Shown: one piece after another, positions 35,060 through 53,780 of the stretch
Numbering within the stretch: position 1 is the first letter of the stretch
Layout of the letters: each line of letters begins with the position of its first letter
Assembly: GCA_001899775.1 (NCBI GenBank)
Contig: MKWN01000010.1
Location: 62,001 to 126,000, forward strand
Direction of reading: 5' to 3'
Length of the DNA: 64,000 nt
DNA from: Thiobacillus sp. 65-29
Lineage (GTDB): Bacteria; Pseudomonadota; Gammaproteobacteria; Burkholderiales; Thiobacillaceae
Made by a program: the position numbers and the translations under genes
The notes under the pieces: generated by a model
Told to the model about the DNA's origin: nothing
Database searches by the model: none
The model's input: only the letters and a program-made list of their open reading frames with translations

Positions 35060-35836
35060 CTACTGAAACAGGTACTGCCCGTGGATGCTGCGCCGGACGA
35101 GCAGCAGGCCATAGGTCGTAAACAGCATCATGGCATAGGGGACGAGTGCCACGGCGGCCCAGCGCTTGCCGCGCCAGGCGGGTCGGTGGCGCAGATGAAG
35201 CACGAAGGCGTACGCCATGGCCGTGGCAAACGACCAGCTCTCGATGGGGTCCCAGCCCCAGAAACGGCCCCACGCCAGGCTCGCCCAGTAAGAGCCCGCC
35301 ATCACCATCGCCATCCACAGGAAGAAGGTCCAGCCGGTGAGTCTGCCCGCCAGCACCGGGGTATCCGGCGCGTCGAGGCGTCCCGCGAGCCAGGCTACAT
35401 GAACGCCTGCCGCCAGGGTGGCGGCGCCGATGGCGAAGGAATTGAGCTGCGCATGGATGATCAACCAGTTGGTGCGCAACGACGGATCCATGGGAAACGT
35501 TCCCCGGCTGTGAAACAGCGCCCACGTCACACCCAGCCCCGCCGCCGCCAGGGCCAGCACGCCCGCGGGGCGCAGCTCCGGCAAACGCCACTGCGCCGCC
35601 AGGAAAACCAGCACGATCGCCAGGGCGTCCACCGTCAAATCCTCATAGCGCGTGACGATGGGAATCTGGCCGATGTCCTGCCAGCGCCAGGCCAGCAGCC
35701 CCAGATGGAGAACCAGACCCGTAAAGCCCAGCGCGATGGCCAGACGCTGCCGGCGGTGTTGCCCGAAGCCGAGCAACAGGGCGCCGGTTCCGTACAACGC
35801 TGCGACGCTTCCCTGAAAATACAGGACCGTGCTCAT
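35060..35836 (-). CDS. ccsA: CcsA/ResC-type cytochrome c assembly protein
   Basis: This 258-residue multi-pass membrane protein has the heme-handling WWD-type motif WGRFWGWDPIESWSF and flanking conserved histidines (LIIHAQLNSFAIG and RSIHGQYL). With ResB/CcsB it forms the system II heme ligase that attaches heme to CxxCH sites. The start at 35836 overlaps the resB stop as ATGA. As the last gene of a block with 58 heme motifs, it is probably a dedicated ligase for those cytochromes. Confidence 0.88.
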   Translation of the reverse strand: MSTVLYFQGSVAALYGTGALLLGFGQHRRQRLAIALGFTGLVLHLGLLAWRWQDIGQIPIVTRYEDLTVDALAIVLVFLAAQWRLPELRPAGVLALAAAGLGVTWALFHSRGTFPMDPSLRTNWLIIHAQLNSFAIGAATLAAGVHVAWLAGRLDAPDTPVLAGRLTGWTFFLWMAMVMAGSYWASLAWGRFWGWDPIESWSFATAMAYAFVLHLRHRPAWRGKRWAAVALVPYAMMLFTTYGLLLVRRSIHGQYLFQ

Positions 35837-37080
35837 CGGGCCTTCTCCCACTCGCGCCACCGCCGCGCGAAGCGCCAGTCGTCGCGCAGCGCCCAGGCTT
35901 CCACCCGCCATGTCGCGCCGTCGCGCCGCAGGCGCAGACGGCGCGGATGGAACAGGAGCGACAGCAACGTACCTGCCAGCAGACACGCCATGCCGGCGAA
36001 CACCAACCCGAGAAAGGGATCGGCAGAAAGATACAGCCCCGCCCACGGCACCGTGCCGAGGAAAGTCAAACGATAGACACCCAGATCGGCGGATTCGCCC
36101 GGTGTGAGACGCCCGCTGAAAACGATCTTGCCGCGCTGCCGGGCTTCGAGCTGGAATGCCGGCTGCTCTCGCGGTGTGAGCACCATGCGGTAGAGAATGG
36201 GTTGGCCGTCCAGTTCGACGATTTCATCGCGCTTCAGGGGGACGGCTTCAGTCCAGTCCGCGGGAGCAACGCGGAAATTGACCAGCAGGCGGTCATGGCG
36301 CCCGTCCGGCAACAGCCGGTCGAATACCGCGGTGTGGCCGATGTTCTTGTCCAGGTATACAGCATACGGCCCCACGGCATGAGGACGGTTCACCTCCACC
36401 GTGTCGCGATAAACCCCGCCCTTGTCGCGCAGGGTGACGTCGGCCCGCAATCCGGTCAGGTGCTCGCCGGCTTCCAGCTCCACGTGCAGACGGTCGAGGC
36501 GGAGACGAAAATCGGGAATGCGGGCGGGGTCGCTCCCCGTTTCCAGGAGCAGCTTGTCCGGCTGGCCGGCGTAGATTTCGCCCTCGCTCAGCTCAAGGTG
36601 TGCGCCAAAACGCGCGGGCGTGTTCAAGGCCACGCCGGCGACCAGCATCACGAAGCCCAGATGCAGCAGCGGCACGCCGAACAGCGCGAATTCCTGGTGC
36701 CGGCTTTCGTCATGCACGGCAAAGTGCCGCGCCAGCCCCGGCGGCAGCACACCCGCGCCGACCATGCGATGGCTGGGCGGCACCTTGCCGCGCAACCATG
36801 CCAGCACGCGCACGGCGTGCACCGCCATGGCCGCGAGCAGGTTGGCGCCAAGCGCCAGGCACAACACGGTAAACCCGATCGAGCCGTAGACACGCGACAG
36901 CCCGAGCCCGTCGAATGCCGGCGCAAGCCGCGGCCAGTCGGTCTGCCAGGCGTCCAGCTCCGCTGGCGCCAGCCGATCCAGTTGCGGCAGCGTGCCTCCC
37001 GCCACCGCCGCCAGCACGAGCAGGGCAAGCAGCAGCAGTCCCAGCCGGGGCGAGGCGAAAAGCCGCCACGCTGTTCGCAT
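35833..37080 (-). CDS. resB: ResB/CcsB-type cytochrome c biogenesis protein
   Basis: This 415-residue protein has the ResB pattern: N-terminal TM (LGLLLLALLVLAAVAGGTLPQ), TM2 and TM3 near 65-90 and 135-160 with LFGVPLLHLGFVMLVAG, a large periplasmic beta-rich domain (about 165-350), and a last TM before an arginine-rich tail. It partners CcsA in heme export and ligation. Start 37080 gives an ATGA overlap with the upstream 11-heme cytochrome, showing tight coupling. Confidence 0.88.
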   Translation of the reverse strand: MRTAWRLFASPRLGLLLLALLVLAAVAGGTLPQLDRLAPAELDAWQTDWPRLAPAFDGLGLSRVYGSIGFTVLCLALGANLLAAMAVHAVRVLAWLRGKVPPSHRMVGAGVLPPGLARHFAVHDESRHQEFALFGVPLLHLGFVMLVAGVALNTPARFGAHLELSEGEIYAGQPDKLLLETGSDPARIPDFRLRLDRLHVELEAGEHLTGLRADVTLRDKGGVYRDTVEVNRPHAVGPYAVYLDKNIGHTAVFDRLLPDGRHDRLLVNFRVAPADWTEAVPLKRDEIVELDGQPILYRMVLTPREQPAFQLEARQRGKIVFSGRLTPGESADLGVYRLTFLGTVPWAGLYLSADPFLGLVFAGMACLLAGTLLSLLFHPRRLRLRRDGATWRVEAWALRDDWRFARRWREWEKAR

Positions 37081-39164
37081 CACGGGAAAGTGGATTTCCG
37101 CGAGCAACTGCCGGTGCCCGAGCCGTTATGGCAGTCGGTTCTTTTCCAGGTGCCGCTGGCGATGGCATTGACGTTGGTGATGTCCGAGTTGATGCCGTAG
37201 TCGGTGCAGTCCGTGTAGACGGTCGAAGGGTCGCAGATGGGCATCTGATTATGCGCGTTGTAGGGCTCGGGGTCCTTTTTGGTGCCCCGGCCGTAAACCA
37301 GCAGCGCGCGGTTCGGCATGCCATGCGGCACGGCCGTATGACAGGCGAGACAGGGCATGTCGCGCAGGTTCACATGGCGGGCGTGCATGTTTCGGAGTCC
37401 CGCCCCGGTCGTGGCCCTGAAGCCGGTCTTGAGGGCAGTGCCGTTGTAGTCCGTCGTTCCCGCATAAATCATCCAGTCGTGGCACTTGAAGCACAGGTGG
37501 TTCTGGGTGCCGAGCATGCCGGTGGTGCGATCGTACGGCCCCCACAGGATGGGCCACACATCCGCGCCGTGCGGCCCCTTCAGGCCGGGCAGGTCGGGCT
37601 GGCTGTCGGAATGGCATTCCGAGCAGGTCATGAGCGACGTGGGCGTCATGCCGCCGATCAGCGAGGTGGCATAGTTGTTGGCACCGTCCATGAACGGATT
37701 CTTGCCCTGCGCGACCACCGGATGGTAGGAGGCGTTGTTGGGGTTGAATTCCTTGGCCTGGTCGGTGTTGATTCCACCGGCGATCATGCCGTAGGGATCC
37801 GCCGGCGGCGTCGATCCGAAAGCGTAGTAGGAGTGGCATTTGAGGCACAACTGGTGCTGGTATTGCACGTCGTCGACGACGGTATAGGTGGTCACAGGTT
37901 GCCAGGCGGCCGGCCAGGTCGGCTGCACGCCCCACACGCCCTTGTTCACCGGCGCGGCGAGGTTGTTGGTGGGATTGGGCACGCTGGGCGACACGCCAGG
38001 CGACACGGCGTGGGGGTTGTGGCAGTCCTCGCACTCGGCGTGGCGATTGGTGCCCAACTCGGCGGGTTCCTCGCGCACCTTGCCGTCCGGCATGCGCTTG
38101 GGGTTGTGGCGACCGTCGTAGGCGGGGTTTTTGGTGGGGTGCGCATACATCTTGTTCAGTGCGGCATCGATATTCCAGTACGACACGTTGCCGTTGTGGC
38201 AGACGAGACAGACCTTGGCCTCGCCGTCCTGCTTGAGAATGCGGCTGCCGCTGGTGGCGGCGTTGTGCGGCTGGTGGCAGCTCTCGCAACCGTTGGCCTT
38301 GTTGGTGGAATTGGGGTCGTTGGCAAGATTGTGCCCGGGCACGTGCCAGGGATTGTCGCCCGCGCCGTTCCATTGCCGCGTCTGTTCGCGGTGCGACATG
38401 TTGCTCACCGTGTTCCAGTACATCTTGTCATGACAGGTGCGACACAGCGGCGAACCATAACCGGCGCCATCGGTGTAGCCGACATGGAGGAATTTCGGAT
38501 TGGCCTCGACGTGCGGGTCGTGGCAGCTCGAGCATTGCATCTGGCCGCTGCTGTCCGGCTTGATCTTGCCGGTGAGCGCGGCGGGCGAGACAAGCTCGGG
38601 ATTGGTCGCCGCGAGGGTGGTATCGTAGGTGAAGGAAACCGGGTGATCGTTGCGCAGGTCGGTGCCCAGGCTCGCCGGCCCGGTGAGAAAGGCTTCGAGG
38701 CCGGAAATCGTGCCTGCGGCCTGATGGCCGAACGGCAGGTTCTGCACGCCGCCCAGCGCGACCGTGCCGTCATGGCAGGACAGGCACAGCTTGGAGGTGC
38801 CACTGGGTTGTCCGGGCGCCGCGGCGGCAAGCGTGTTGCTACCGTAGGGTGTGTACACCGCCGCCGAAAGCGCGTGGTTCCACAGCGGCACCGCGGGGTT
38901 GCTGTTGTGGGGCGTGTGGCAAAAGACGCAGATCTGGCTTTCGGCCGTCGCCTTGTGGGTGCCGGGGCCACTGGCGGACAGGTTGTGTTTGGTGTTGGCG
39001 ATGTTGGCCATGCCCGACGCGGTCCAGCCGAGCAGGCCGACGACGAGCAGGATGGCGCCAAACCATCCCCAGGAGTGGTTTTTTGCGCGCGGTCGCTGCC
39101 GGTCGCGGAATTTTACGCGCGCATCGGTCGCGTGCGCGGCGAACAAGGCTGACCTATCTTGCAT
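37080..39164 (-). CDS. 11-heme c-type cytochrome
   Basis: This 694-residue protein has an N-terminal anchor or uncleaved signal (WFGAILLVVGLLGWTASG, residues about 33-50) and eleven CxxCH motifs, from CVFCH to CLACH. The final segment has TDCHN, which looks like a heme site that lost its first cysteine. Its first 200 residues resemble the tetraheme protein at 51897-52604 motif by motif (NTKHNLS, CVFCHTPH, PLWNH, CLSCHDGTVA, NDHPV). It overlaps the NHL gene stop upstream and resB downstream. Periplasmic or extracellular electron carrier; partners inferred from position. Confidence 0.88.
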   Translation of the reverse strand: MQDRSALFAAHATDARVKFRDRQRPRAKNHSWGWFGAILLVVGLLGWTASGMANIANTKHNLSASGPGTHKATAESQICVFCHTPHNSNPAVPLWNHALSAAVYTPYGSNTLAAAAPGQPSGTSKLCLSCHDGTVALGGVQNLPFGHQAAGTISGLEAFLTGPASLGTDLRNDHPVSFTYDTTLAATNPELVSPAALTGKIKPDSSGQMQCSSCHDPHVEANPKFLHVGYTDGAGYGSPLCRTCHDKMYWNTVSNMSHREQTRQWNGAGDNPWHVPGHNLANDPNSTNKANGCESCHQPHNAATSGSRILKQDGEAKVCLVCHNGNVSYWNIDAALNKMYAHPTKNPAYDGRHNPKRMPDGKVREEPAELGTNRHAECEDCHNPHAVSPGVSPSVPNPTNNLAAPVNKGVWGVQPTWPAAWQPVTTYTVVDDVQYQHQLCLKCHSYYAFGSTPPADPYGMIAGGINTDQAKEFNPNNASYHPVVAQGKNPFMDGANNYATSLIGGMTPTSLMTCSECHSDSQPDLPGLKGPHGADVWPILWGPYDRTTGMLGTQNHLCFKCHDWMIYAGTTDYNGTALKTGFRATTGAGLRNMHARHVNLRDMPCLACHTAVPHGMPNRALLVYGRGTKKDPEPYNAHNQMPICDPSTVYTDCTDYGINSDITNVNAIASGTWKRTDCHNGSGTGSCSRKSTFP

Positions 39165-40206
39165 CACGGCCTCCGAGATACTGGAAAATCTGCACGCGGT
39201 TGTTGTACGAGTCGGCGACGTAGATCCGGTTCTGCGCGTCGATCAGCATGCCCGCCGGCAGCCAGAACTTGCCCGGCTCCTGGCCGGAGGTGCCCCAGAA
39301 CAGCAGCAGGCGCCCCGTTTCATCGAACACCTGGACATTGTCGAAGCCCGCATCGCTCACATACACATGGCCTTCGCTGTCCATCGCCACACCTTTGGGC
39401 GCGGAAAAATCGCCGGAGCCGTCACCGTGCTTGCCGAAAGCGGAAATCCGGCGACCCTCGGCGTCGAAAATCTGGATGCGCATGTTCATGCTGTCGGTCA
39501 CCGCGAGGCGGCCGTGACGATCCAGCGCGAGGAAGGTGGGAAAATTGAACTCCCCGGCTTCGCTGCCGCGGCGGCCGATCGTGCCGACAAGCTTGCCGCT
39601 CGTCAGATCGACGATCTTGATGTCGTGCGCCGGCGTATCGGCGACATAGAGACGCTGGCGCGCGCGGTCGATGACCAGTGCCGACGGACGCTTGAGCCAG
39701 CCCGCGGTGTCGAGGAGGCGCTCGAACTTGCCATCCGACCTGAATATGAAAATCTTGTTCAGTTCGCCGTCGGCAACATAAATATTATCTTTGCCGTCCA
39801 CCGCAAGACCGATGGGCAGGCGCAGGGTATCCCACTTGCTGCCGCGCACGAATGCATAGCTGCGCTTGCTGCGGTCGAAGATGTGCACGCGCCCGCGCTT
39901 GGTGTCGGCCACCAGCAGGCGGTCCCGGCCATCGACAGCGACCGCCATCGGACGAACGATGTGCTCGTCGTCCGCCTCGCCGCGGATGAAGTCCCACACC
40001 TTGCGGAAAAATCCCCTTTTGTACCCGATATCTTCTGGGCCGGAAATCGACCCGACGTAGCGGATACGCGGCTGCAACGGCGGCGACGGCCACACCAGTT
40101 CAGGCGTGACAGCCGGCTGGGCATCCCCCGTCGGCGCGGCGTCCTTCGCCCACGTGGCGGGCGCCGCCACGAACAGGGCGAGCGTGAGGCACGGCAGCGT
40201 CTTCAT
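39154..40206 (-). CDS. Exported NHL-repeat beta-propeller protein
   Basis: This 350-residue protein has a signal peptide (MKTLPCLTLALFVAAPATWA), a conserved entry segment LVWPSPPLQPRIRYVG shared with the protein at 52704, and about six NHL blades with the DxxGRLxVxDSxNxRIQIF pattern. It is likely a periplasmic or surface scaffold for the cytochromes; no catalytic residues are evident. I chose 40206 for the signal peptide. In-frame ATGs just after the previous stop (about 40315) would add some 36 residues. Confidence 0.8.
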   Translation of the reverse strand: MKTLPCLTLALFVAAPATWAKDAAPTGDAQPAVTPELVWPSPPLQPRIRYVGSISGPEDIGYKRGFFRKVWDFIRGEADDEHIVRPMAVAVDGRDRLLVADTKRGRVHIFDRSKRSYAFVRGSKWDTLRLPIGLAVDGKDNIYVADGELNKIFIFRSDGKFERLLDTAGWLKRPSALVIDRARQRLYVADTPAHDIKIVDLTSGKLVGTIGRRGSEAGEFNFPTFLALDRHGRLAVTDSMNMRIQIFDAEGRRISAFGKHGDGSGDFSAPKGVAMDSEGHVYVSDAGFDNVQVFDETGRLLLFWGTSGQEPGKFWLPAGMLIDAQNRIYVADSYNNRVQIFQYLGGRDAR

Positions 40207-40318: not shown

Positions 40319-43300
40319 TTATCGATAAAGCAAATGCTTACGGCGCGAAGTGTCGCCGTGGAAATACTTGTAGCGGAACAGCGCATCGAGGCCATGGCAA
40401 TCGGCACACAGGGAAAAATCGCTGGTGTTGCGCAGGAAACTGCTGCGCGCGTCGCCCTCGACGTTGCGCCCCTCGCCACCCTGCGGATGCTGCACGCTCC
40501 ACTGGTGGGCATTGTGGCAGGTCGGACAGGAAATGACGCCGGAGCCGCTGCGCACCCCCTCGGGCGTGAACACGGGGAAATGGCCGCCGTTTTCGCGCCG
40601 GTTGCCCGGGTTGGAGATGACGTTGACCTTTGCCGGATGGCTGCCCTGCAGCGGAATCTTCGCCGCGGCCACCTTCTCCGCGGCGTGACAGGAACGGCAC
40701 AGACGTTCCATCGCGTCGTTGCCCTCGCCCAGCGGACGCGCCCACAGGCGCACCTGGGCCGCCGCGTTGTGCACCATGTGGCACTGTCCGCACACGCCGG
40801 AGGCCTGCGTGTCCTGCGCGCGGATGTTGGTGGCCTGCGGTGCGGTGATGGCAAGATCGTGGTCGGTGTCCTTCACCTGCTGCTTGTCGGAGTGACAGTT
40901 CGCGCACAGGGTCGGCGCCGGCCAGGCCGGTGCACGCAGAAAGCTGTCGGCAGCCCCGCCTTCGACGTCGGTCCGTGCGCCGGCCTTGCTGGCGGGGTTC
41001 GCCGGATCCCATTGGTGCAGGTCGTGGCAGGTCGCGCACGCCACCTTGCCCTGTGCGGCGTCCTTCCTGCCCTCGGCGGTGAACAGCGGCAGGGTGGTGC
41101 TGCCGCCGATGTTCTTCAGGTCCACCCGCAAGGGATGGCTGTTGGCGCCGGTCTGTTTTTTCGCGGCGACACCCCCGTCGCGGTGGCATTCGGCGCACAA
41201 CACTTCGATGCCATCCTGTCCCGGCCCGGTGGCGCGCGCCCACATCTTGGCACCATTGCCGTTGTGCGGCAGGTGACAGGCGCCGCACACACCGCTCTCC
41301 GCGGTGGTGCGTCCCTTCGTATTAGACGCGCTGGGCGCGGAAATGGCGAGGTTGTGCTTGGACAGGGCGATCGCGCCCTTGTCCACATGGCAGTTGGCGC
41401 ACAGTGTTCCCTTGCTGTCGTTCGGCAGACGCAGGAAGCTGGATTCAACGGTGCCTTTGGTCGTTTTCGGATCGCCGGCGGGCCTGGTTTTACCGCCCGG
41501 CGCCCAGTTGTGCGGGTCGTGACAGGTGCCGCACGCCACGTTGCCGCCTTCCGCAGCCGGCACACCGTGCGGGTCATAGAGCGGCAGCACGGTACCGGGC
41601 GTGGCGATGCTCCCGGGCGGCACCGTCCATTGTCCGTCTTTTGCCGTAATGCCAATGCGCGCGATGGGCACGCCCACGGGATGGCTGTTGTCACCGACGG
41701 TGCGCTTGCGCGCAAGTCCCGCGGCATTGTGGCAGTTGAGGCAGGCCGACGAAGCGGGATCGGTTCCGGTCAGCACCTCGCGCGCCCACATGCGTGGCCC
41801 GCCGCCATTGTGCGGCAGATGGCAGCTCGCGCACACGCCGGCCTGCGCCGGGGTCTGCCCGCGGATGTTGCGCGCCGTCGGCGCCATCACGGCAAGATCG
41901 TGCTTGGTGTTGACGATCCCGGACTTGTTCGTGTGGCAGGTGAGGCACAGCCCGGCATCCGGACCGTTGGGCTTGCGCAGGAACTTGTCGCTGCCGCTGG
42001 CAGGATCGCCCGGCTTCGATGCCTTCTGCGGATCGCGCGGATCCCACTGGTGTGGATCGTGACAACTGGCGCACGCCACCCGACCCTTGCCGTCACCCAC
42101 CGACTTGACGCCCTCGCGCGTGTACCCCGGCAACGCCACGGCTGCGCCGAGACGCGCCATGTCGCGTCCCACCGGGTGCGTATGCGTGCCGACCTGCCGC
42201 TCGGCAGCCAGGCCGCCGTCGGTGTGACAGGTGAGACACAGGTCGGACACCGGGTCGTCGCCGGGCTTCACCGTGCGCGCCCACATCTTCGGCCCCTGCC
42301 CGCCGTGCGGCACATGGCAGGCGCTGCACACGCCGGCACGGCCCACTTCCTGGCCGCGCACGTTCCTGTCGGCCGGGTTCAGCAGTGCCATGTTGTGCTT
42401 GCTCGTCGCCACGCTGCGCTGACCGACATGGCAGGTCTGGCACAGTTGCGACTGCGGATTGGGGGCGACGAGAATGCGCGCACCCTCTTCGGCGAAATGC
42501 GGCTTGTGGCAGGTCTGGCAGATCACCGTGCCGCCCTCGCCCAGCTTCGCGCCGCGTTCCAGCAGCGCCTGCGGGATCTTCACCTTGTCGGGGCGGACGT
42601 TCACCGGATGCGTCGCCATGCGTCCCGCCTCGGCGAGCGAGCGCGCATAGCGATCGGCGTGGCAGGTGCCGCACAGCTCGGAGTTGGGGTTCTTCACCGC
42701 CAGCAGTTTCTTCTCCGGTGCGCCGTGGACGAGGTGGCAGGACTGGCAGATCACGTTCCTGCCACCACCGAATTTGGAGCCCGCCTCCGTCAGTGCGCCC
42801 GGAATTTCCTTCATTTGCCTGAACACCGGGTGGTTGCCTTCATCGGGACCGGTGCCGCGTTCCAGGTGGCAGCTCATGCACAGGCTGGAATCGACGTTCT
42901 TCATGCGCAGGAACACCGGGGAGAGTTTTTCGCCCCACTCCACGCCGTGCGCGCTGTGGCACGTGCCGCAATACACCTTGCCGTCCTCGTTGAGCGGGAA
43001 CAACTGCTTGCCGTCCGCGGTCGGGATGTTCACCTTGCCCGAGGGCTTGACCCCGATGGGATGGAAATTCTGGCGATTCTTCCACGCGAAACGCGAATCC
43101 AGCACGAAGCCGTCGTGACAGGAAAAGCACATGCGGTCGGTGCTCGCCGCGTCCTGCCTGCCGGTCGCGACCGTCGGTTTCGGATCGTAAGCAATCAATG
43201 GCGTGACGTCCTTGCGGTTGAAATCCACCAGCCACATGACGTGGCAGGTGGAGCATTCACGCTGCGGCGAAATATCCCGCGCCGCCTCCGCCCAACGCGG

Positions 43301-45397: not shown

Positions 45398-45419
45398 GGT
45401 CATTCCTCAAGTTTGATCG

Positions 45420-45599: not shown

Positions 45600-46517
45600 T
45601 CATTCACGCGGCTGCGTACCCCAGATTTTCTTTTCCGCGATCAACTCCCGGAGGTATTTCCTTTCCTCCGGCATGCTCACGATGCAGCGCAGGTATTCGT
45701 GAAAATGCTCCTCGATCTGGTGCTCGCGGGTGATCTTGCCGGTGAGGAAAGTCCATTGCATCGGGAAGCGACCCGGCGCGAGATGGACGTTGTACCAGTG
45801 CCAGAAGGCGATCACCAGCAGCGCCAGCAGCGCCTCGTGGGGATGGGACAGACGCATCATTTCCTGGAAATGCGAGGCGATGCCGATCGGCAGGATGCTT
45901 GCCCACACATCGGGGAAGAGGAAGGTCGAACCCGAGATCACCATCACGGTGTTGCCGAAGCCCGCCGCAAAATAGTGGATCTTCTGCTTGTACATGAACT
46001 TGTCCATCTCCGGGCGTACCGGGCGCTTGCCGCCGAAGAACAGCATGTCTTCCCTGAAGTCGCTGACGTCCTTCCAGATCGGCAGGATGGTGCGCCGCAG
46101 TTCGAAGGTGCGATTGCGCCATTTGATGAGCGTCCCCATGCCGATGGTGGCGAAGTGGTACACCATCGCGAAGATCATCGTCACCGCGAGTGTGCGGTGG
46201 ATCACGCGTGTCACCTCCAACCCCCCCAGCATGGAGTTGAAAGGCTCCGCCCAGAAGGCGTCGTGGTAATGAATGGGCAAGCCGGTGAACGCCAGTAGCA
46301 GGAAAGTGGAGAAAATCAGCAGATGCTGGATGCGGATGTGAATGCTGTAGCGATAGAAATCGCCGATCGGATTCGAATCCACGTTCTTGTAGAGCAGTGA
46401 ACGGTCATCGGGCAACAGCGCGATCACCTCGTCGATGTCCCGCTCCTCCTCCGGTCCCACCCGGTTGTGGCGCTTTGCGTTGTGCAGCACTTCGCGTGCT
46501 TCGTGTGACAATTCCAT
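45600..46517 (-). CDS. Membrane cytochrome b (formate-dehydrogenase-gamma / b561-like)
   Basis: This 305-residue protein has about four or five TM segments with histidines placed for two b hemes: RIQHLLIFSTFLLLAFTGLPIHYHD, RVIHRTLAVTMIFAMVYHF and LLALLVIAFWHWYNVHLAP. It likely exchanges electrons between quinones and the adjacent triheme cytochrome. The first 50 residues are polar and cytoplasmic. The start at 46517 (MELSHEAREV) has AAGGA about 10 bp upstream. Confidence 0.83.
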   Translation of the reverse strand: MELSHEAREVLHNAKRHNRVGPEEERDIDEVIALLPDDRSLLYKNVDSNPIGDFYRYSIHIRIQHLLIFSTFLLLAFTGLPIHYHDAFWAEPFNSMLGGLEVTRVIHRTLAVTMIFAMVYHFATIGMGTLIKWRNRTFELRRTILPIWKDVSDFREDMLFFGGKRPVRPEMDKFMYKQKIHYFAAGFGNTVMVISGSTFLFPDVWASILPIGIASHFQEMMRLSHPHEALLALLVIAFWHWYNVHLAPGRFPMQWTFLTGKITREHQIEEHFHEYLRCIVSMPEERKYLRELIAEKKIWGTQPRE

Positions 46518-46573: not shown

Positions 46574-47686
46574 TCACACGATGCGGTTGCTCTTGCGCCG
46601 CGTGCGCCGCCACCAGGAGCTTCCCTCGCGGAAGCGCCAGCTCACGCCGTCGCGCAGGCGCCCCCAGGTTTCGAATGCCGCCAGCCCCACCAGCGCCACC
46701 AGCACGCTGTTGCCCACGATGCCGTAGATCAGTTCGGCATAGTGCTTGAACGCGTTGTCCTCCTTCTTGCTGGAGGGATGGGGATCGAGCGCCGCGTAGT
46801 TGGCGTCGGCGCGCACGTGACACTGCCTGCAGGTCTCCACCCGCTTCTGCGCGCTCACCGGCGATCTCGGGTCGCGCGACGGCAGCAGTTCGTGCACGCT
46901 GAGGTAATAGTTCACGGCGTCGGCATGGCAGTTCAGGCAGTTGGCCGCGTCGGTATTGCCGTACTTGGTCACCTTGCCGTGGAAGCTTTCCTCGTAGGAC
47001 GACACCGCAATCGGGAACTTGCGCCCGAGTTCGCGCCCTTCCTGTGTCGCAACCTGCTCGCGCCGCTCGATCATGCCCTTGTCGGCGTGGCAGGCGGAAC
47101 ACATGGCGACAATTTCCTGCGGCGAGCGCTTGACCTCGCGGATGCGCCGGCTGGTGTGGTTGTACCACTTCTCGGCGAAGCTGGAGTCCTCATGACACAC
47201 CACGCAGCGGTCGACGATGTGCTTCGGTGGTTTTTCTTCCCTGGCGTTGTAGAGGGGATTGGTGTGGCAGTTCACGCAGTACGGCTTGTCCCCATCGCTG
47301 CCGGTGGCGATCTTCTCGCGCCCGTGCACGCTCTTGCGGAAAGTGTCGACGATCGGCTTGTGGCTGAACGGCTTGCCGGTGGACGGGTTCTGGATCGAAT
47401 GGCATTCCGAGTCGCAGGTCACCCCGGTGGTCAGCGGCTTGTGCGGAAGCTCCCGGATTTCCTTGTGGCAGTCACGACACGGCACGTTGCGGTGCACGGT
47501 CTTCGTGAACACATGCGGCATCACGTAATAGCTCTTCTGCTTGCCGTCCTCGTCGATGCGCCCCATCTTCGGATACTTGTGGCACATCAGGCAGGCCTCG
47601 TCGTCCTCGAACGCGAGGGCCGGCGTGGCAGAACCTACGAGCAGCGCCAACATCCACGCCGCGCTCCATCTGATCAACTTCTGCAT
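46574..47686 (-). CDS. Octaheme c-type cytochrome with C-terminal membrane anchor
   Basis: This 370-residue protein has a signal peptide (MQKLIRWSAAWMLALLVGSA), seven CxxCH sites and one CxxxCH site (CDSECH, encoded at 47399-47416). Near the C-terminus a membrane helix (IVGNSVLVALVGLAAF) is followed by an Arg-rich tail, so the hemes face the periplasm while the tail is cytoplasmic. The start at 47686 has AAAGGA at 7 bp. It precedes the cytochrome b gene, suggesting a membrane quinol-oxidising complex. Confidence 0.87.
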   Translation of the reverse strand: MQKLIRWSAAWMLALLVGSATPALAFEDDEACLMCHKYPKMGRIDEDGKQKSYYVMPHVFTKTVHRNVPCRDCHKEIRELPHKPLTTGVTCDSECHSIQNPSTGKPFSHKPIVDTFRKSVHGREKIATGSDGDKPYCVNCHTNPLYNAREEKPPKHIVDRCVVCHEDSSFAEKWYNHTSRRIREVKRSPQEIVAMCSACHADKGMIERREQVATQEGRELGRKFPIAVSSYEESFHGKVTKYGNTDAANCLNCHADAVNYYLSVHELLPSRDPRSPVSAQKRVETCRQCHVRADANYAALDPHPSSKKEDNAFKHYAELIYGIVGNSVLVALVGLAAFETWGRLRDGVSWRFREGSSWWRRTRRKSNRIV

Positions 47687-47787: not shown

Positions 47788-48843
47788 CTACTTGTCGTGA
47801 CAATTACTGCAAACCGGCCCTCCTGGCGGTACCCGCAGGCGCTTGTAGCCGTCTGCGCCCCGGTCTGCCTCGGCATGACGCTGCACGCCCCGCTCGTGCG
47901 GGTTGTGGCAGGTCGCGCAGAAGATGCGCCCGCTCGATCTCTCCAGCGGCAATACGACGCCCCGCGTGGCTGCGGACTGCTGCATGCGTTTGAGGATTTC
48001 CGGCGTTGGCTGCACCAGGTGATTCGGTCCGGCAGCGGTCGAGTTCGGTGCAAAATGCGCCCAGCCGCCGCCCGGATGAGGGCGCCACGGATGGCAGCCC
48101 GTACACAGCTTGGTCAAATCGTCGATGACGTTGAAATTCACGTCGTCGATGCTGCGCACCTCGCGGCGATTGGGAGCGATGCTGTGACACACCAGGCAGC
48201 GCTCGCCGAGCAGTTCGCCCTCGTCGCTGATCTGATCGTGCGGGTTGAGACGCTGGTAATGCCCGGGATCGTGACAGTTGAAGCACAGGTCGGTGCGCGC
48301 ACGGTACGGTCCGCCGCGGAAGAAGCGCGGGTTGAGCCCCTTCTCGGGCAAACGCGCCTTGTTGCACTGCATGGGAAGGTCGTGACAGGCGATGCACGTC
48401 ACCACGCCGCCGCCGCGCTTGATCGCCTGGCGGAAATCCTCCGGCATGCGCGTGCGCTTTGCAGCCGACGGCGCCATGCCGACCGCGTGGATATAGTTGT
48501 GCACCGAGACCGTGTCGTGGCAGTTGTTGCATAGCTGGTTGACGTCCTCCACGAGCAATTTCGCGCCCGTCTTGTCCGGCATACCGGCATGGCAGGCGCT
48601 GCACCCCTGTCCGTCGTCGCGCCAATGCGGATCGGGAATCTGCTCCACGCCGATCTCGCCCTGCCGCACCAGGCGCGGAATCTCCCCGACATTGCTGAGC
48701 AGGCTCTTTTCGTCCCATACCTTCTTCACCTCTCCGCTTGCGGACGATGCAGCCTGCGACAGTCCCCAGACCACCATCAGCAACGCCGCAGGCCACAACA
48801 ACCACGAAGCACGCACGCCGTTTCCCCATACGCTAACGCTCAT
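47788..48843 (-). CDS. Exported octaheme c-type cytochrome
   Basis: This 351-residue protein has a signal segment (ASWLLWPAALLMVVWGLSQA) and eight CxxCH motifs: CSACH, CNNCH, CIACH, CFNCH, CLVCH, CTGCH, CATCH and CSNCH, the last at the very C-terminus. There is no C-terminal anchor, so it is probably soluble in the periplasm or attached to the barrel. Start 48843 (MSVSVWGNG) is chosen for the signal peptide. It does not resemble the hydroxylamine-oxidoreductase or Otr octaheme families by motif order. Confidence 0.87.
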   Translation of the reverse strand: MSVSVWGNGVRASWLLWPAALLMVVWGLSQAASSASGEVKKVWDEKSLLSNVGEIPRLVRQGEIGVEQIPDPHWRDDGQGCSACHAGMPDKTGAKLLVEDVNQLCNNCHDTVSVHNYIHAVGMAPSAAKRTRMPEDFRQAIKRGGGVVTCIACHDLPMQCNKARLPEKGLNPRFFRGGPYRARTDLCFNCHDPGHYQRLNPHDQISDEGELLGERCLVCHSIAPNRREVRSIDDVNFNVIDDLTKLCTGCHPWRPHPGGGWAHFAPNSTAAGPNHLVQPTPEILKRMQQSAATRGVVLPLERSSGRIFCATCHNPHERGVQRHAEADRGADGYKRLRVPPGGPVCSNCHDK

Positions 48844-48892: not shown

Positions 48893-48955
48893 CCCTCTCC
48901 CCGCCCTCTCCCACGAGCGGGAGAGGGGGACAAAGTCTCGCTGCGCGAATTTCAC
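48893..48955. repeat. Dispersed repeat with CCCTCTCCC...GGGAGAGGG hairpin, copy 1
   Basis: CCCTCTCCC pairs with GGGAGAGGG across a short loop, followed by the segment AAGTCTCGCTGCGCGAATTT. Nearly the same order recurs at 54819-54872. It lies between the octaheme and PQQ-propeller genes. Confidence 0.6.
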
Positions 48956-48956
48956 A

Positions 48957-50069
48957 TTAACGCCACGCACTCACAGAACCTTCCTGGGTCGCCACCAGCA
49001 CGACGCCATCACTGATGGCCGGCCCGCCGAATACGCCTCCGCCCAGCTTCCGTTCCCAGGCAATCCGGCGCCGCGCTAGATCCACGCCCACGAGACGGCC
49101 GTCCAGCGTTGCCACGACACCGATATGGTTGCGCGCGATACTGGGCGAATGCCGCACCTCGCCATCGAGCGACATCTGCCAGACAATCCCGCCGTCCGCC
49201 GCGCGCAGCGCGTAGAACACGCCGTTGCGGCTGCACACATACAGCATGTCTCCCGCGGGAACCGGCGTTCCCTGCGGCCAGTCGTCGAGTTCCGTCTTCC
49301 AGAGGAGGGTCCCCGCCGCGGCGTCGAGTGCATACACGTTGCGGTCGTACGCACCCTGGTAGAGCCGGCCATTCGTCAGCGCAGGGGCACCGTACAGCGC
49401 CGAGCCGAGTTCGGTTTGCCACACCGGCTGGCCGCCCTCGCGCCGGACCGCATGCAGCATGCCGTTCTTGCCGCCCACATAGACGCGCGCACCGTCGGCC
49501 GCCGGGGCGGCAAAATTCCCGCCGTACTTGTAATCCCTCACACGGTAGCGCCAGGCTTCCTTGCCGTTCCCGAGGTCGAGCGCATAGAGGAACTGATCCA
49601 CGCTGCCCACATACACCCGGCCGTCCCGCACCGCAGGCGCCGCCACCACGTCGCCGCCCAGGCGCACCTGCCAGAGCCGCTTGCCGTCGTAAGCCGCGAG
49701 CGCCGTCACGCTGCCATCCTTCGCCGCGACAATGACGACGCCATCGACCAGCGCGGGGGACGCCGAGATCGCGCCACGCGCCTCGTACTGCCACAACACG
49801 TTGCCCTTGCGTGCATCCAGCGCGCTCAGGCGGCCGTCGCTGCCGGCGACGAACACCATGCCCTCGCCCGCGATCGCCCCGGCCTGCACCTTGCCGCCCG
49901 CGTGGCGCTCCCACTGCCGTGCCGGCGCCTTCGCCGAGACGGCATCCGTGCTCTGGTGCAGGCGCTCCGGCCCGCCGCCGAGCATCGGCCAGTCTGCCGC
50001 CCCGGCGGACGTGCCGCCCAGCAGCATGGCTGCCAGCAGCGGACACAGACAATCAGAAACGCAGGTCAT
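48957..50069 (-). CDS. PQQ-type (BamB-like) beta-propeller protein
   Basis: This 370-residue protein has a signal peptide (LLAAMLLGGTSAGA) and about seven or eight PQQ-like blades (DARKGNVLWQYEA, AYDGKRLWQVRLG, GNGKEAWRYRVRD, AAAGTLLWKTELD, AADGGIVWQMSLD). No PQQ-dehydrogenase active-site residues are evident, so a structural or assembly role, as for BamB, is likelier than catalysis. It overlaps the end of the barrel gene by 17 bp. A GTG at 50075 is an alternative start. Confidence 0.82.
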   Translation of the reverse strand: MTCVSDCLCPLLAAMLLGGTSAGAADWPMLGGGPERLHQSTDAVSAKAPARQWERHAGGKVQAGAIAGEGMVFVAGSDGRLSALDARKGNVLWQYEARGAISASPALVDGVVIVAAKDGSVTALAAYDGKRLWQVRLGGDVVAAPAVRDGRVYVGSVDQFLYALDLGNGKEAWRYRVRDYKYGGNFAAPAADGARVYVGGKNGMLHAVRREGGQPVWQTELGSALYGAPALTNGRLYQGAYDRNVYALDAAAGTLLWKTELDDWPQGTPVPAGDMLYVCSRNGVFYALRAADGGIVWQMSLDGEVRHSPSIARNHIGVVATLDGRLVGVDLARRRIAWERKLGGGVFGGPAISDGVVLVATQEGSVSAWR

Positions 50070-51888
50070 AATCACGCTTCAGCACGATCGTCATCGAGCG
50101 TTCCTTGAACGGCGCAAAGTCCTGTTGGGCGTCGCGGTAACGATAGCGCGCGATCGCCTGCCACTTGCCGATGCGGTAGTTCAGGTCCGATTCGGCGGTC
50201 AGCTTGTCGCCCGCGATATATGCCGTGCCGTCGACCTGCTCGGCACGCAGCAGCGCCGTCCAGTGCAGGTTGCCGCGCAGGGTCGCATTGCCGCGTAGCT
50301 GGACATACCGGGTATCCAGGCTCACGCCCTGGCTTGTGCCATCGGTCGCACCCACCGACAGCATGACGCTGCCGCTCTGCGAAAAACGGTGCAGCCAGCC
50401 GAACTCCACGCGCGCACTCTGCGTGTCCGTCATGGCGTAGTGGTAGGTATCGGGGGCCACGACCAGCGCGCTCCATACGGCATATTCCTGCCGGTAACGG
50501 CGATACTCGGCGACGCCCTGCAGCAGATTCTGCTGCGACAGCGTGCTGGTCACGTTGTAACGCAGATTGGCTTCGTCGCCGCTCGGTTCGCCCACGGTCC
50601 GGCTCAGGCGCAATTGCAGCGAGTCGGCATAGCGCGGCGAGCCCGCCCGCGTGTAGCCCAGATCTACGCTGTGGGTGAGGTTCTGCTGGTCGGGAAGACC
50701 GGCGACCGTGGCGGAGGCATCCGATTGCATCGCCGCCAGGCTGTAGCCGCCGTTCACGAGATAATTGCCGAAGGTATCCGAATAGGTCACCGCAGCACTG
50801 CCGGACAGGGCCTTGCTGTCCTGGCTCTGGGTGGCGCCTGACAGGGGATCGGCCCATTCCGAACGGGTCGTGTTCATCCCCAGCATGCCGCTCGCCTGCC
50901 ATGTGCTGCTGAAACGGTAGGTCACGCCCCCCGAGAGATTGTGCGTCATGCTCTGGCTGCTGCCGACATCGTTCATGCTGAAACCCAGCGTGTAATAGTG
51001 GCGCAGCATCTCGGTCTGCTGCACGTTGAGCATGCTGTTGAAGCCGAGAAACTGCGAGTCGAGGCCGTGCGCGCCGGACAGCACGCTGCCCCAGTCGTCG
51101 CTGCGGTCGTAGAAGGTGAGGTTGGCGGTGAGCGTAGCCTTTTCGCCGAACAGCGAGCGGTCGTTGAGATAAAGATAATTCTGCCGCTGGCCGCTGCCAT
51201 AGACCTTATCGTCCCACGCGGTATAGCGATAGCCGTAGGACAGCGCGGACTCGCCCCATTGCTGCGCCCGGACGGTGCGGCTCGCATCCAGCCCGAGGGA
51301 CAGGTTTTCCTCGGAGCGGGGCACGACGGTGCTGCGCGACTCGGATACGACGTGATCGATATAGAAGCTGGTCCGCCCGACCCAGATGCTGTCGAGTCCC
51401 CAGCGCACGCCCTCGCTCCGTGTGGAAAGCTCATACGACGGCGACCAGAAGTCGGCCACCGTACTCTGGCTGCTGTTGGCGTATACCAGCAGCGGATGGG
51501 GACGGTTGCCGAACCAGGTGGTGCTGAGGCGATAGCCGAGCGTGTCCAGACCGGTGTTGCCGTTGACACCCGCGTCCCGGGTCTTCACGGTTTCCTTCTG
51601 CAGCGTCAGGCCGGCATCGAACACGGCGAAGCGCGGATCCCACAGATAGCCCCGCCCGGTGAGGTCGAAGCGCCCGCGCAGGCGCGTGCGCTCGCGCGTA
51701 CTCGCCGCCATGTCGTAGCGGTAGTCCTCTGCCTCCATCCCGAACGAGCCCGAAAGAGAGACGAGTTTGCCCGCACCGCCCAGCTCCGACATCTTCAACG
51801 CCATCACCTGGACGGGAAACAGGGCCAGAAGCGCGGCGAGCGCCCCCCTGGCCCGCCTGGAGCCATGCCGCCCATCCCTTTTGCCCAC
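50053..51888 (-). CDS. Outer-membrane beta-barrel protein (porin of a cytochrome complex, MtrB/PioB-like in role)
   Basis: This 611-residue protein has a signal peptide (ALAALLALFPVQVMA), then alternating aromatic/hydrophobic strands of a large barrel, ending in KRDYDLRF, the C-terminal Phe signature read by the BAM machinery. Size and context, amid six multiheme cytochromes, fit a porin that sheathes a cytochrome wire through the outer membrane. Neither sequence motifs nor an N-terminal CxxC identify it as MtrB itself. The start is a GTG at 51888, 9 bp after the tetraheme stop. Confidence 0.78.
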   Translation of the reverse strand: MGKRDGRHGSRRARGALAALLALFPVQVMALKMSELGGAGKLVSLSGSFGMEAEDYRYDMAASTRERTRLRGRFDLTGRGYLWDPRFAVFDAGLTLQKETVKTRDAGVNGNTGLDTLGYRLSTTWFGNRPHPLLVYANSSQSTVADFWSPSYELSTRSEGVRWGLDSIWVGRTSFYIDHVVSESRSTVVPRSEENLSLGLDASRTVRAQQWGESALSYGYRYTAWDDKVYGSGQRQNYLYLNDRSLFGEKATLTANLTFYDRSDDWGSVLSGAHGLDSQFLGFNSMLNVQQTEMLRHYYTLGFSMNDVGSSQSMTHNLSGGVTYRFSSTWQASGMLGMNTTRSEWADPLSGATQSQDSKALSGSAAVTYSDTFGNYLVNGGYSLAAMQSDASATVAGLPDQQNLTHSVDLGYTRAGSPRYADSLQLRLSRTVGEPSGDEANLRYNVTSTLSQQNLLQGVAEYRRYRQEYAVWSALVVAPDTYHYAMTDTQSARVEFGWLHRFSQSGSVMLSVGATDGTSQGVSLDTRYVQLRGNATLRGNLHWTALLRAEQVDGTAYIAGDKLTAESDLNYRIGKWQAIARYRYRDAQQDFAPFKERSMTIVLKRDYDLRF

Positions 51889-51896
51889 ACTCGCTG

Positions 51897-52604
51897 TTAC
51901 TTATTGTGGCAGGCGAGACACATCGTGCTTCCGGCCATCGACACACGCAGGAAGGCCATACCGGTCGGATCCTGGGACGTGTGCGGATCGTGGCAGGACG
52001 CGCATTGCACCTTGTTGTTGAAGAGTTTCACACCGGTGAGACTCGCGGGGTTCTTGAGACCGCCGTCCGCCGTTACGAGCGCGCCGTCATAGGTGAAGTT
52101 GACCGGATGATCGTTCTTCAAGGCCGTGGCGCCCGTGCCGAGGTTGCTGTTACCAGCCGGAATGAAAGCGCTACCCGCCCCGCTACCGCCCGTCATGGTC
52201 GTGGTGGGGCGCGCATTCGACGGGTTGTTCATCGAGTTCACCGCCACCGTGCCGTCGTGGCAGGACAGGCAGAGGTTGCTCACCGCCGCAGTGCCTTCCG
52301 TCACCCCGCCGATGTCCGCGGCGTCCGTCGCGTTGAACGTGGGACTGGCGTAGGTGCCGTAGGACGCCGTCGACGACAGGGTGTGGTTCCACAGCGGGAT
52401 GTTGTCATTCTTGATCGCATCGTGCGGCGTGTGACAGAACACGCAGATCTCGGTCTGGTCGGTCGACTTGATGGTCCCGGTACCGGTCACCGAGAGGTTG
52501 TGCTTGGTGTCGGCAATGCCGGCGGCGATCGCGGTGGTCGAGGCCGCCGCGAACAGCCCGAGCAGAACCGCTGCCAAGGCGGCGGATTTTGTTGGTGTGT
52601 ACAT
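51897..52604 (-). CDS. Tetraheme c-type cytochrome
   Basis: This 235-residue protein has a signal peptide (AALAAVLLGLFAAASTTAIA) and four heme sites: CVFCH, CLSCH, CASCH and CLACH. Shared blocks (ADTKHNLSVTGTG, CVFCHTPH, PLWNH, CLSCHDGTVAV, KNDHPVNFTYD) show it is a paralogue of the first part of the 11-heme protein at 37080. AGGAGGGAA precedes the ATG at 52604. It lies 8 bp before the outer-membrane barrel gene, as expected for the periplasmic partner of that porin. Confidence 0.88.
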   Translation of the reverse strand: MYTPTKSAALAAVLLGLFAAASTTAIAAGIADTKHNLSVTGTGTIKSTDQTEICVFCHTPHDAIKNDNIPLWNHTLSSTASYGTYASPTFNATDAADIGGVTEGTAAVSNLCLSCHDGTVAVNSMNNPSNARPTTTMTGGSGAGSAFIPAGNSNLGTGATALKNDHPVNFTYDGALVTADGGLKNPASLTGVKLFNNKVQCASCHDPHTSQDPTGMAFLRVSMAGSTMCLACHNK

Positions 52605-52703
52605 TTCGATTTCCCTCCTGATAGTCATGAAAAAATAACCTGCACTGCACGGCGAAGCCCTTGGTCGGCTTCGGCGCATGTGCGCTTTCACCCAAGATGA
52701 CGC

Positions 52704-53780
52704 TTATCTTTCCGCGCCTTTTTTATTTGCAACATACTGAAAAACCTGAACGCGGGCGTTCATCGAATCGGCCACGTAGATGCGGTTCGACGCGTCGATG
52801 AAGATCGCGGTGGGGATCCAGAACGTCCCCGGATCCCGCCCGGCACGACCGACAAACAGCAGGAGCTTTCCGCTCGTGTCGAAAATCTGGAAGTTGTTGA
52901 ATGCCGCGTCGATCACGTAAATATTGTTGTCCGAGTCGACCGCGATACCTTTGGGACGGCTGAAGCTGCCATACGAATCGCCGAGCTTGCCGAAGGTATC
53001 CAGATATTTCCCTTGCGCATCAAATGTCTGCACGCGGAAATTGCCGGTATCGGCCACCATGATCCGGCCGTCACGATCCACCGCCAGATTGACGGGGTAA
53101 TTGAACTGTCCGGGTTCCGCGCCCCGCTCGCCGAAATCGAACAGGAATTTGCCCTCCATGTCGTAGGCGAGCACCCGGTGCTTGACCGTGTCGGCCACGT
53201 AGAGGCGGTTGCGTGCCTCGTCCAGCGCCAGACCCGTGGGGCGCCCGACGCCCTCCTGCTTGCCCAGCGCCTGCAAGGTCTTGCCTTCCGGCGTCAGCAC
53301 CAGCACCTCGTTGCGCTCGGAGTCGCTGACATAGATGCGGCCCCGGCTGTCGAGGCGGATTTCGAGCGGGTTGTAGAGTGCGCCGTGCGCGTCGGTCTGC
53401 AGCGGGCGTGCCTCGCGCTTGTCGAGATCGAACACCACGATCGCGCGCATCCGCGTGTCGGTGACGTAGATTCGCCTGCCGTCGGGGGTGGCGGTGACGC
53501 CATAGGGCTTGTCGAGCGTCAGGCCGGATTTCTTTTCACCGAGCAGCCTGGCCTTGAAATCATCCTTCGCGCCGAGGTCGTCATGGCCGCGATATTCCGC
53601 AAGGTAGCGGATGCGCGGCTGCTCGGGCGGCATCGGCCACACCAGATCTTCTGTCGAAACCTTTTTCGCCGGCTCCGCCGCGCAACCGGCCAGCCCCGCC
53701 AGGGCAAGGCCCATGCAAGTCCGTAAAACCGCGCGCTTCCACCCGCTCCAATCCACCTTTTCCACGTCTCCAGTCCCCAT
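52704..53780 (-). CDS. NHL-repeat lipoprotein
   Basis: This 358-residue protein has a lipobox LAGC at about residues 30-33 and the entry segment LVWPMPPEQPRIRYLAEY, close to that in the NHL protein at 39154. Six NHL blades follow (GRRIYVTDTRMRAIVVF, GRIYVSDSERNEVLVL, NRLYVADTVKHRVLAY, GRIMVADTGNFRVQTF, NNIYVIDAAFNNFQIF, NRIYVADSMNARVQVF). It is the first gene of the island's minus-strand block and probably sits on the outer membrane. Confidence 0.85.
   Translation of the reverse strand: MGTGDVEKVDWSGWKRAVLRTCMGLALAGLAGCAAEPAKKVSTEDLVWPMPPEQPRIRYLAEYRGHDDLGAKDDFKARLLGEKKSGLTLDKPYGVTATPDGRRIYVTDTRMRAIVVFDLDKREARPLQTDAHGALYNPLEIRLDSRGRIYVSDSERNEVLVLTPEGKTLQALGKQEGVGRPTGLALDEARNRLYVADTVKHRVLAYDMEGKFLFDFGERGAEPGQFNYPVNLAVDRDGRIMVADTGNFRVQTFDAQGKYLDTFGKLGDSYGSFSRPKGIAVDSDNNIYVIDAAFNNFQIFDTSGKLLLFVGRAGRDPGTFWIPTAIFIDASNRIYVADSMNARVQVFQYVANKKGAER

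Follow-up and report, generated by a model that had tools for sequence, protein, structure and literature searches.

A gene island of Thiobacillus sp. 65-29 that probably encodes an extracellular electron-transfer chain with OmcE-related multiheme cytochromes

A 64,000-nucleotide stretch of Thiobacillus sp. 65-29 (contig MKWN01000010.1, positions 62,001 to 126,000; hereafter the window) carries on its minus strand, at positions 35060–53780, an island of 14 genes, identified by reading of its open reading frames (ORFs) and by Pfam and NCBIfam annotation. We consider it probable that the products of this operon make up a complete chain for extracellular electron transfer, based on the heme packing of OmcE, the cytochrome nanowire of Geobacter sulfurreducens. 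Sequence and fold relate two of its proteins to OmcE, namely a secreted tetraheme cytochrome (tetraA) and the first domain of an undecaheme cytochrome (MHC11; MHC, multiheme cytochrome), and they likewise establish an outer-membrane barrel and a conserved gene set. What is new here is this OmcE relation of three cytochromes, tetraA, the first domain of MHC11 and, more weakly, a 24-heme protein (MHC24).

A sequence search of the Protein Data Bank (PDB) with tetraA matched the OmcE nanowire (7TFS) over the full length of the protein (residues 14–235 of 235 to 11–232 of 232, E 3.5e-29), followed by 9yuq_N (E 7.2e-27). The four CXXCH motifs of tetraA align with those of OmcE and its non-motif histidines (in TKH, TPH, NDH and DPH) align with histidines of 7tfs; these four distal histidines are kept in 66, 64, 68 and 68 of 68 family members. 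Going by the number of histidines rather than by the structure, the aligned residues would be heme ligands in OmcE. In OmcE and OmcS filaments, according to the accessible text of PMC9473688, one heme per subunit is ligated by a histidine of the neighbouring subunit. Chain N of 9yuq, a second solved relative of tetraA, is entered as ‘Putative multiheme cytochrome c’ with 16 chains in its entry and perhaps represents a further filament of the OmcE type.

For MHC11, a profile of nine sequences matched 7TFS at E 1e-44 over the first four hemes, and the N-terminal domain scored 190.6 bits against an OmcE-like profile. Among PDB structures, a template-free AlphaFold2 (AF2) model of the protein (predicted local distance difference test, pLDDT, 74; predicted template modelling score, pTM, 0.79) matched 7TFS alone at E <= 0.001 (E 2.4e-6, TM-score by target 0.59). 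All 11 CXXCH motifs are invariant in the nine-sequence alignment and 10 of the 11 in 75 sequences, where the four distal histidines of the first domain are also invariant. Alignment A3 of MHC11 took in 74 of 81 ORFs with 10–12 motifs, omitting L084 (a second copy), L104, L112, L114, L118, L124 and L132. The other seven hemes had no clear relative (OmcS at E 0.006 in the sequence search, OcwA at E 0.098 by model). The literature searched held nothing joining OmcE with 11-heme or 24-heme proteins, the primary papers on Uet (mSphere 2022), OmcE, extracellular cytochrome nanowires (ECN) and Dechloromonas occultata lying outside that reach.

The genes of the island, in their order, and the domains within them are as follows.

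52704..53780, minus: NHL1, NHL-repeat propeller with lipobox LAGC (Pfam NHL, 129 bits)
51897..52604, minus: tetraA, secreted tetraheme cytochrome of the OmcE family (7tfs match, distal histidine conservation)
50053..51888, minus: outer-membrane beta-barrel of ~25–26 strands, 611 amino acids (AF2 model and profile)
48957..50069, minus: PQQ/BamB-type propeller (Pfam PQQ_2, 207 bits)
47788..48843, minus: MHC8a, octaheme cytochrome with signal/transmembrane helix (8 CXXCH)
46574..47686, minus: MHC8b, octaheme cytochrome with putative C-terminal membrane anchor (7 CXXCH and 1 CX3CH, hydropathy)
45600..46517, minus: cytochrome b, four hydrophobic helices (Pfam Ni_hydr_CYTB, 2.2e-7)
44309..45403, minus: MHC3, triheme cytochrome, two N-terminal hydrophobic helices (motif count, hydropathy)
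43384..44307, minus: NHL2 propeller (Pfam NHL, 111 bits)
40319..43387, minus: MHC24, 24-heme cytochrome, six four-heme units resembling OmcE (OmcE-like profile sum, unit alignment)
42848..43276, minus: MHC24 unit 1, 4 hemes, without two distal histidines (this and the next five by unit alignment by eye)
42419..42847, minus: MHC24 unit 2, 4 hemes
41918..42418, minus: MHC24 unit 3, 4 hemes
41375..41917, minus: MHC24 unit 4, 4 hemes
40880..41374, minus: MHC24 unit 5, 4 hemes
40322..40879, minus: MHC24 unit 6, 4 hemes, C-terminal histidine
39154..40206, minus: NHL3 propeller, start at 40206 (with signal peptide) or 40317 (Pfam NHL, 124 bits)
37080..39164, minus: MHC11, UetJ-like undecaheme cytochrome (11 CXXCH, alignments)
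38424..39053, minus: OmcE-like tetraheme domain, MHC11 N-terminus (profile, 7tfs match, AF2 model)
35833..37080, minus: ResB-like cytochrome c biogenesis protein (Pfam ResB, 103 bits)
35060..35836, minus: CcsA/CcsB-like heme-handling membrane protein (Pfam Cytochrom_C_asm; NCBIfam ccsB, 104.7 bits, below the cut-off of 187.6)

A preliminary description of this DNA, made from its letters, had counted fifteen genes here; we found 14, the next minus-strand gene (54040–54486) lying outside the island. Its count of 58 heme motifs in six cytochromes was confirmed (4 in tetraA, 8 each in MHC8a and MHC8b, 3 in MHC3, 24 in MHC24 and 11 in MHC11), a single one of them, in MHC8b, being CX3CH. The four propellers that it named are three NHL proteins and one PQQ_2/BamB-like protein by Pfam, its ResB-CcsA pair gave ResB and Cytochrom_C_asm matches, and its cytochrome b, membrane triheme and anchored octaheme agree with the Ni_hydr_CYTB match and the helices predicted by hydropathy. 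The remaining Pfam matches in the island are to doubled-CXXCH/cytochrome c7 families. Several 4-bp gene overlaps had also been claimed; two were found on ATG (43387 and 35836) and a possible one on GTG (37083), the other junctions being longer overlaps, 1-bp overlaps or gaps that vary with the start chosen. The G+C content of the island (0.61–0.67 in 2-kb steps) falls inside the range of the whole window (0.57–0.67). A scan for promoters and terminators gave numbers near the shuffle level (promoter-like, 1 against a mean of 3.0; terminator-like, 19 against 14.9).

Against a profile of 68 OmcE-like tetrahemes, MHC24 gave 223 bits summed over 13 partial matches. The summed score of 100 shuffles keeping each CXXCH and its next three residues reached a maximum of 124 (mean 85), and that of 100 shuffles keeping CXXCH alone a maximum of 29. 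Six units of 143–186 amino acids may be drawn by eye, of which units 3–5 have the order KH, CxxCHxxH, CxxCH, HP, CxxCHxxH, FLR, CxxCH. Unit 6 deviates by DH for KH, unit 2 by NHP for KH and IL for FL, and unit 1 by the lack of the first two histidines. In 11 sequences of 24 hemes, the 24 proximal histidines and exactly 23 others are invariant; of the latter, unit 1 holds two, units 2–6 four apiece and the C-terminus one. A chain end ligated by a partner molecule, in the way that OmcE subunits ligate one another, could account for the one missing ligand. The description of MHC24 as six OmcE-like four-heme units is thus supported, if more weakly than the relation of the other two cytochromes. 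With an OmcE rise of 34 Å, the value in the part of PMC12954529 available, OmcE-like packing would give the protein a length of about 6 x 3.4 nm, or 20 nm. A 22-heme relative of MHC24 is encoded at 1–2670 of L079 (Desulforhopalus sp. IMCC35007), upstream of a run of tetraheme, NHL, 4-heme, barrel, NHL and 11-heme genes.

Hydropathy predicts one N-terminal and one C-terminal hydrophobic helix for MHC8b, two N-terminal helices for MHC3 and four helices for the cytochrome b, so that membrane anchors are supported, more weakly than the OmcE relation of tetraA. All eight motifs of MHC8b and the heme motifs of MHC3 are kept in 14 sequences, those of MHC8b being invariant, and H65, H107, H121, H225, H240, H245 and H271 of the cytochrome b are invariant in 12. 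Against PDB sequences MHC8b gave only weak matches to NrfH, c3 and NrfB (best E 0.033). The relation of the cytochrome b to Ni_hydr_CYTB and formate dehydrogenase gamma suggests that the module may exchange electrons between quinone and cytochrome c. MHC8b, cytochrome b and MHC3 move as a three-gene module, present in three copies on one contig of a genome of another family (G416). These paralogues (C139; L038/L039; positions 15223–26952 of the joined contig) are 79–85%, 30–35% and 24–32% identical to the genes of the window, and one of them is inverted relative to the others; they suggest that the module was duplicated to serve different redox partners.

The barrel protein of 611 amino acids had no Pfam match at E 0.001 and no NCBIfam match at E 0.01, and its profile found nothing among PDB sequences (best E 0.4). 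AF2 predicts a 25-stranded barrel (mean pLDDT 81, pTM 0.72, with residues 394–469 of low confidence) and the protein ends in RF, as the preliminary description had it. A profile iterated from it collected 70 ORFs in the loci analysed below, duplicates and partial ORFs included, with full-length members mostly of 610–740 amino acids and usually with an aromatic end; 44 of the 70 entered the barrel alignment (A2). Against a second profile, built from 35 barrels of other taxa only, the barrel of the window scored 81.9 bits, 200 shuffles scored at most 4.4 and the reversed sequence was not listed; these 35 came from the iteration, which can drift, and the test is to that extent less than fully independent. 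The other barrels are only 12–18% identical to that of the window. No match to the barrel was found in plasmids and no relative in viral contigs. By its position, MHC8a is a candidate link through or to the barrel. Twenty-one small pentaheme ORFs from many phyla (in L067, L068, L073, L076, L090, L100, L103, L115 and other loci) each directly precede a barrel-sized ORF; this pentaheme may fill the barrel, and no counterpart to it was seen in the window. The PDB matches of NHL1 were ordinary NHL propellers, and the 53 at E <= 1e-5 included no cytochrome-filament entry.

The preliminary description had proposed a search for conserved co-occurrence, and the gene order does recur. The barrel was found in 4 of 60 genomes searched (host included), all four among the 36 of the host's genus. 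In the three others (G004, G006 and G013, Thiobacillus) all 14 genes are colinear with the window, and the island is therefore not a chance arrangement. G416 has all 14 kinds of gene, with inserts that include two extra copies of the MHC8b-cytochrome b-MHC3 module and with the NHL2-like gene on the other strand. Two Sulfurimicrobium loci (L055 and L056) have MHC8b to CcsA in the order of the window, without NHL2. Relatives of the 24-heme gene occur in 5 of 22 genomes of the family of G416 (E <= 1e-60) and, at 1e-40, in 3 of 399 genomes for the order and in 11 of 369 for the class, the host being counted in both; some of those in the class have 18 hemes. Nine contigs with a 24-heme gene were read. 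G562 and G535 hold tetraheme, NHL1, barrel, NHL3, 11-heme, 8a, 8b, cytochrome b, MHC3, NHL2 and 24-heme genes in one run; G566 has the same run, with no tetraheme in the slice read and with an additional inverted 8b-cytochrome b-MHC3 module; the other six have parts of the run, several cut by contig ends. There are thus two modules, outer and inner, which stand in tandem in Gammaproteobacteria and are interleaved in Thiobacillus. An island confined to this one genome is ruled out by the colinear loci of the genus and by the gammaproteobacterial runs.

MHC11 itself matched 18 of 399 genomes of the order at E 1e-20, several only over its first part. A scan of named genomes with the nine-sequence alignment gave at least 567 relatives, of which the best 80 loci were analysed; having been ranked by their closeness in MHC11, they bias the counts towards close relatives. 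Gene tags came from BLAST matches to window proteins, from heme counts and from two profiles, and ORFs that received no tag were ignored. Among tagged genes, the immediate predecessor of the 11-heme gene is an NHL gene in 75 of the best 80 loci; the order barrel, NHL, 11-heme occurs in 40, a barrel anywhere in 55 and an OmcE-like tetraheme in 50. All four outer kinds (tetraheme, NHL, barrel and 11-heme) are present in 47 loci of the 80; among the 42 loci that are 20 kb or longer, 33 have them all. By record titles, these 47 loci span about ten phyla, most being metagenome-assembled genomes (MAGs) taken as binned: beta-, gamma- and alphaproteobacteria, Deltaproteobacteria, Nitrospirae, Verrucomicrobia, Planctomycetes, Bacteroidetes, Chlorobi/Ignavibacteria, Calditrichota, KSB1, Hydrogenedentes and Zixibacteria. 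The Thiobacillus/Sulfurimicrobium loci L054–L056 are outside the 47, neither barrel nor tetraheme being seen in their slices. The best named relative of MHC11 among the 80 is that of Thiobacillus sp. RS343 (90% identical), and other named strains with relatives include Desulforhopalus sp. IMCC35007 and Aestuariivivens sediminis S-DT1-15. The nearest relative outside Thiobacillus and Sulfurimicrobium in this set, L057 (a Ca. Polarisedimenticolaceae MAG), has a neighbouring pair of 11-heme genes around ResB and CcsA, with 52% and 55% identity to that of the window.

On the other strand beside the island are a NarK-type transporter (55202–56455; NCBIfam NarK family, 212.8 bits, below the cut-off of 311.7), narG (1908 bits) and narJ. 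In G013 and G004, too, the island is flanked by NarK, NarG (partial in G013) and a small cytochrome c, and the contig of G416 ends at NHL1, so that the flank beyond is unreadable there. The small monoheme cytochrome c (54040–54486, with an Ala/Pro-rich leader) lies between the island and narK, where it could be a shuttle to a nitrate or oxygen branch; a terminator-like hairpin of 10 pairs (53982–54005) separates it from NHL1. Just past the CcsA end, at 33540–34022 and 34182–34785, a small ORF resembling a REP-type transposase and a HicA/HicB-like pair were noted by eye, and reading frames like ‘GLKPDLR’ are repeated at about 33.9–35.0 kb, possibly marking a mobile edge of the island.

The preliminary description had proposed an electron-transfer path, and the parts, a barrel among them, could indeed link quinone to the cell exterior; nitrate reductase genes adjoin the island. 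From these parts we infer the following chain. Secreted tetraA would polymerise into an OmcE-like filament outside the cell. MHC11, an OmcE protomer domain with seven hemes of its own, would join the end of the filament as an adaptor and exchange electrons with the barrel, MHC8a probably providing the path through it. MHC24 would span the periplasm as a six-unit wire, some 20 nm long if OmcE-packed, and MHC8b, cytochrome b and MHC3 would form an inner-membrane module exchanging electrons with quinone. The NHL and PQQ propellers, together with ResB and CcsA, may help to assemble the heme-rich proteins. More tentatively, and as a possibility that we rate well below the chain as a whole, OmcE-type packing may be used three times over: in an outer polymer (the tetraheme), in a plug fastening that polymer to the outer membrane (the MHC11 N-terminus) and in a single-chain periplasmic wire of six units (MHC24).

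The partner in electron exchange is most likely a solid or another cell, and uptake from such a partner, feeding nitrate respiration and CO2 fixation, is the probable use. Uptake is favoured because the host genome (2.9 Mb, 61 contigs) has genes of sulfur-oxidation type (dsrA, over cut-off at 508.6 bits) and of CO2 fixation (two RuBisCO large-subunit genes), because narG and narJ adjoin the island and because cathodic growth of Thiobacillus denitrificans is reported in the accessible text of a review (PMC12575090). The same evidence makes it less likely that the chain works outward, discharging electrons to Fe(III) or Mn oxides or to a partner as OmcE does in Geobacter. Such a direction would agree with the part of OmcE in Fe(III) oxide reduction by Geobacter, as far as PMC12307469 was available, and with the presence of the cassette in MAGs of Geobacteraceae (L119) and Desulfuromonadales (L076).

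Several results weigh against the chain as proposed. The flank read in G006 showed neither NarK nor NarG, and no FNR-type site lies near the operon, the three one-mismatch matches in the window all falling before 16 kb. The literature search gave no study of any protein of this operon. Foldseek matches of the barrel were mostly TonB-dependent receptors; MtrB (6r2q_B) came seventh by E-value, yet with the top query TM-score (0.44) among the 50 rows listed, so that the modelled fold supports a barrel and not specifically a conduit. MHC8a was rejected as a relative of the barrel-preceding pentahemes (21.5 bits, with shuffles up to 36.2). In MHC24, the best single OmcE-like match (31.4 bits) is hardly above the best of the motif-preserving shuffles (30.7), and 7tfs was only a weak match in a single-sequence PDB search (E 0.032). 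The OmcE-like case for this protein is carried by the sum and by the histidine order because single matches are no better than in shuffles. Its relatives have 18 hemes (Gammaproteobacteria), 22 (one, in Desulforhopalus) or 24, so the number of units is not fixed. MHC24 may instead be an extended wire of the MtrA/DmsE type that resembles OmcE only by the shared doubled-CXXCH motif. TIGR03508 (DmsE/MtrA) does match it in four stretches (87.2 bits, below the cut-off of 192.2), which counts against the OmcE relation since doubled-CXXCH proteins share motifs. We nevertheless regard this origin as doubtful in view of the OmcE-like sum of 223 bits, which comes from a different library and settings and is not strictly comparable with 87.2, and of the order of histidines and motifs in units 3–5 (with DH for KH in unit 6). 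Less likely still is a porin-cytochrome cluster of the Uet type with extra cytochromes and no filament, in which tetraA would be a surface or periplasmic monomer meeting the mineral. The kinds of part are the same as in Uet (PMC10734462, in the part available), and the Uet-like loci of other families of the order (G080, G204, G250 and G288) share the 11-heme (~30–33%) and NHL genes, and all but G250, in the slice read, have a tetraheme as well; G288 (L043) also has a peptidyl-prolyl isomerase (PPIase) and a triheme gene. However, tetraA matches OmcE over its full length with all four distal histidines, and the PPIase and triheme set of Uet is missing from the island.

We retain the OmcE-based chain, in which the MHC11-type gene is a concrete candidate for the joint between a nanowire and the cell, because of its conserved fusion of an OmcE domain with seven further hemes and because, among the best 80 loci, it has NHL beside it in 75 and a barrel in 55. 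Transfer from filament to cell interior is called not well understood in Geobacter in the portion of PMC10553843 available, and a figure legend of the OmcZ paper (PMC9473688, also available in part) states that possible filament tip proteins were not considered. The MHC11-type gene also brings Thiobacillus and about ten phyla under one testable hypothesis. If OmcE-type packing is indeed used three times over, the tetraheme-NHL-barrel-NHL-undecaheme cassette would be a pan-bacterial base for cytochrome nanowires.

The preliminary description had found no match to established porin-cytochrome conduits, which does not hold for the outer half, as this has the same kinds of part as Uet (uetABCDEFGHIJ of Candidatus Tenderia electrophaga). 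Described in Tenderiales, Uet has also been found in Gallionella and Leptothrix (PMC10734462, PMC13386937, PMC12575090), with tetraheme, barrel, NHL and 11-heme parts (PMC10734462); the Tenderia undecaheme gene is Tel_16545 and its trihemes are Tel_16515, 16520 and 16530 (PMC5371394), all according to those parts of the papers that were available. Candidatus Dechloromonas occultata also has undecaheme cytochromes, by the accessible text of PMC13264449. In the island a UetJ-like 11-heme protein, a UetA-like extracellular tetraheme, a barrel and NHL proteins occur together, matched by kind of part; the 80 loci analysed include none of Tenderia. CcsA-like genes, once with a ResB-like gene, adjoin the 11-heme gene in the Uet-like loci too. 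Unlike Uet, the island has no PPIase (UetB; no rotamase match in the 14 genes by Pfam) and one membrane-anchored triheme in place of the three small trihemes UetDEG, and it has instead the 8a-8b-cytochrome b-3-24 genes and a PQQ-type propeller. No tetratricopeptide repeat (TPR) match, as would mark a UetF protein, was found in the 14 genes, and two ORFs of L043 at the expected place were likewise without a Pfam match. The triheme ORFs of G080, G204, G250 and G288 matched no protein of the window. Against the second barrel profile, the Uet-like barrels of L046 and L112 scored 27.6 and 16.7 bits; that of L043, at 10.5 bits, fell short of the inclusion threshold, and that of L044 was not listed. 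We have filed the island as a Uet-like variant, not as Uet, because the PPIase and the triheme set are missing.

Other conduits share fewer features. With MtrCAB, MtoAB and PioAB the island has in common a large outer-membrane barrel with multiheme cytochromes, but no protein of the DmsE/MtrA family exceeds the TIGR03508 cut-off in the host genome, and an MtoAB-like system was ruled out for want of an MtrA/MtoA-family protein over that cut-off. In Geobacter CbcBA, a multiheme cytochrome with a transmembrane anchor stands beside a cytochrome b, a likeness to the inner-membrane module that we draw by description. PCC3 (He et al. 2017, PMC5566968) also combines a porin, large multiheme cytochromes and an inner-membrane protein likely to bind b hemes; that protein, however, has five helices, two WX3HX13H motifs and SGXXG, whereas the cytochrome b of the island has four hydrophobic helices, neither motif and one HX13H. 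The Oet/OmcKL conduits of partner bacteria of anaerobic methanotrophic archaea (ANME) are similar in that genes of filament-forming cytochromes adjoin a porin-cytochrome conduit, but their filaments are of the OmcS/OmcX type (PMC10553843). From the OmcE nanowire itself the island differs in placing its OmcE relative, a candidate filament protein, in one operon with a barrel, propellers and 11-heme and 24-heme proteins.

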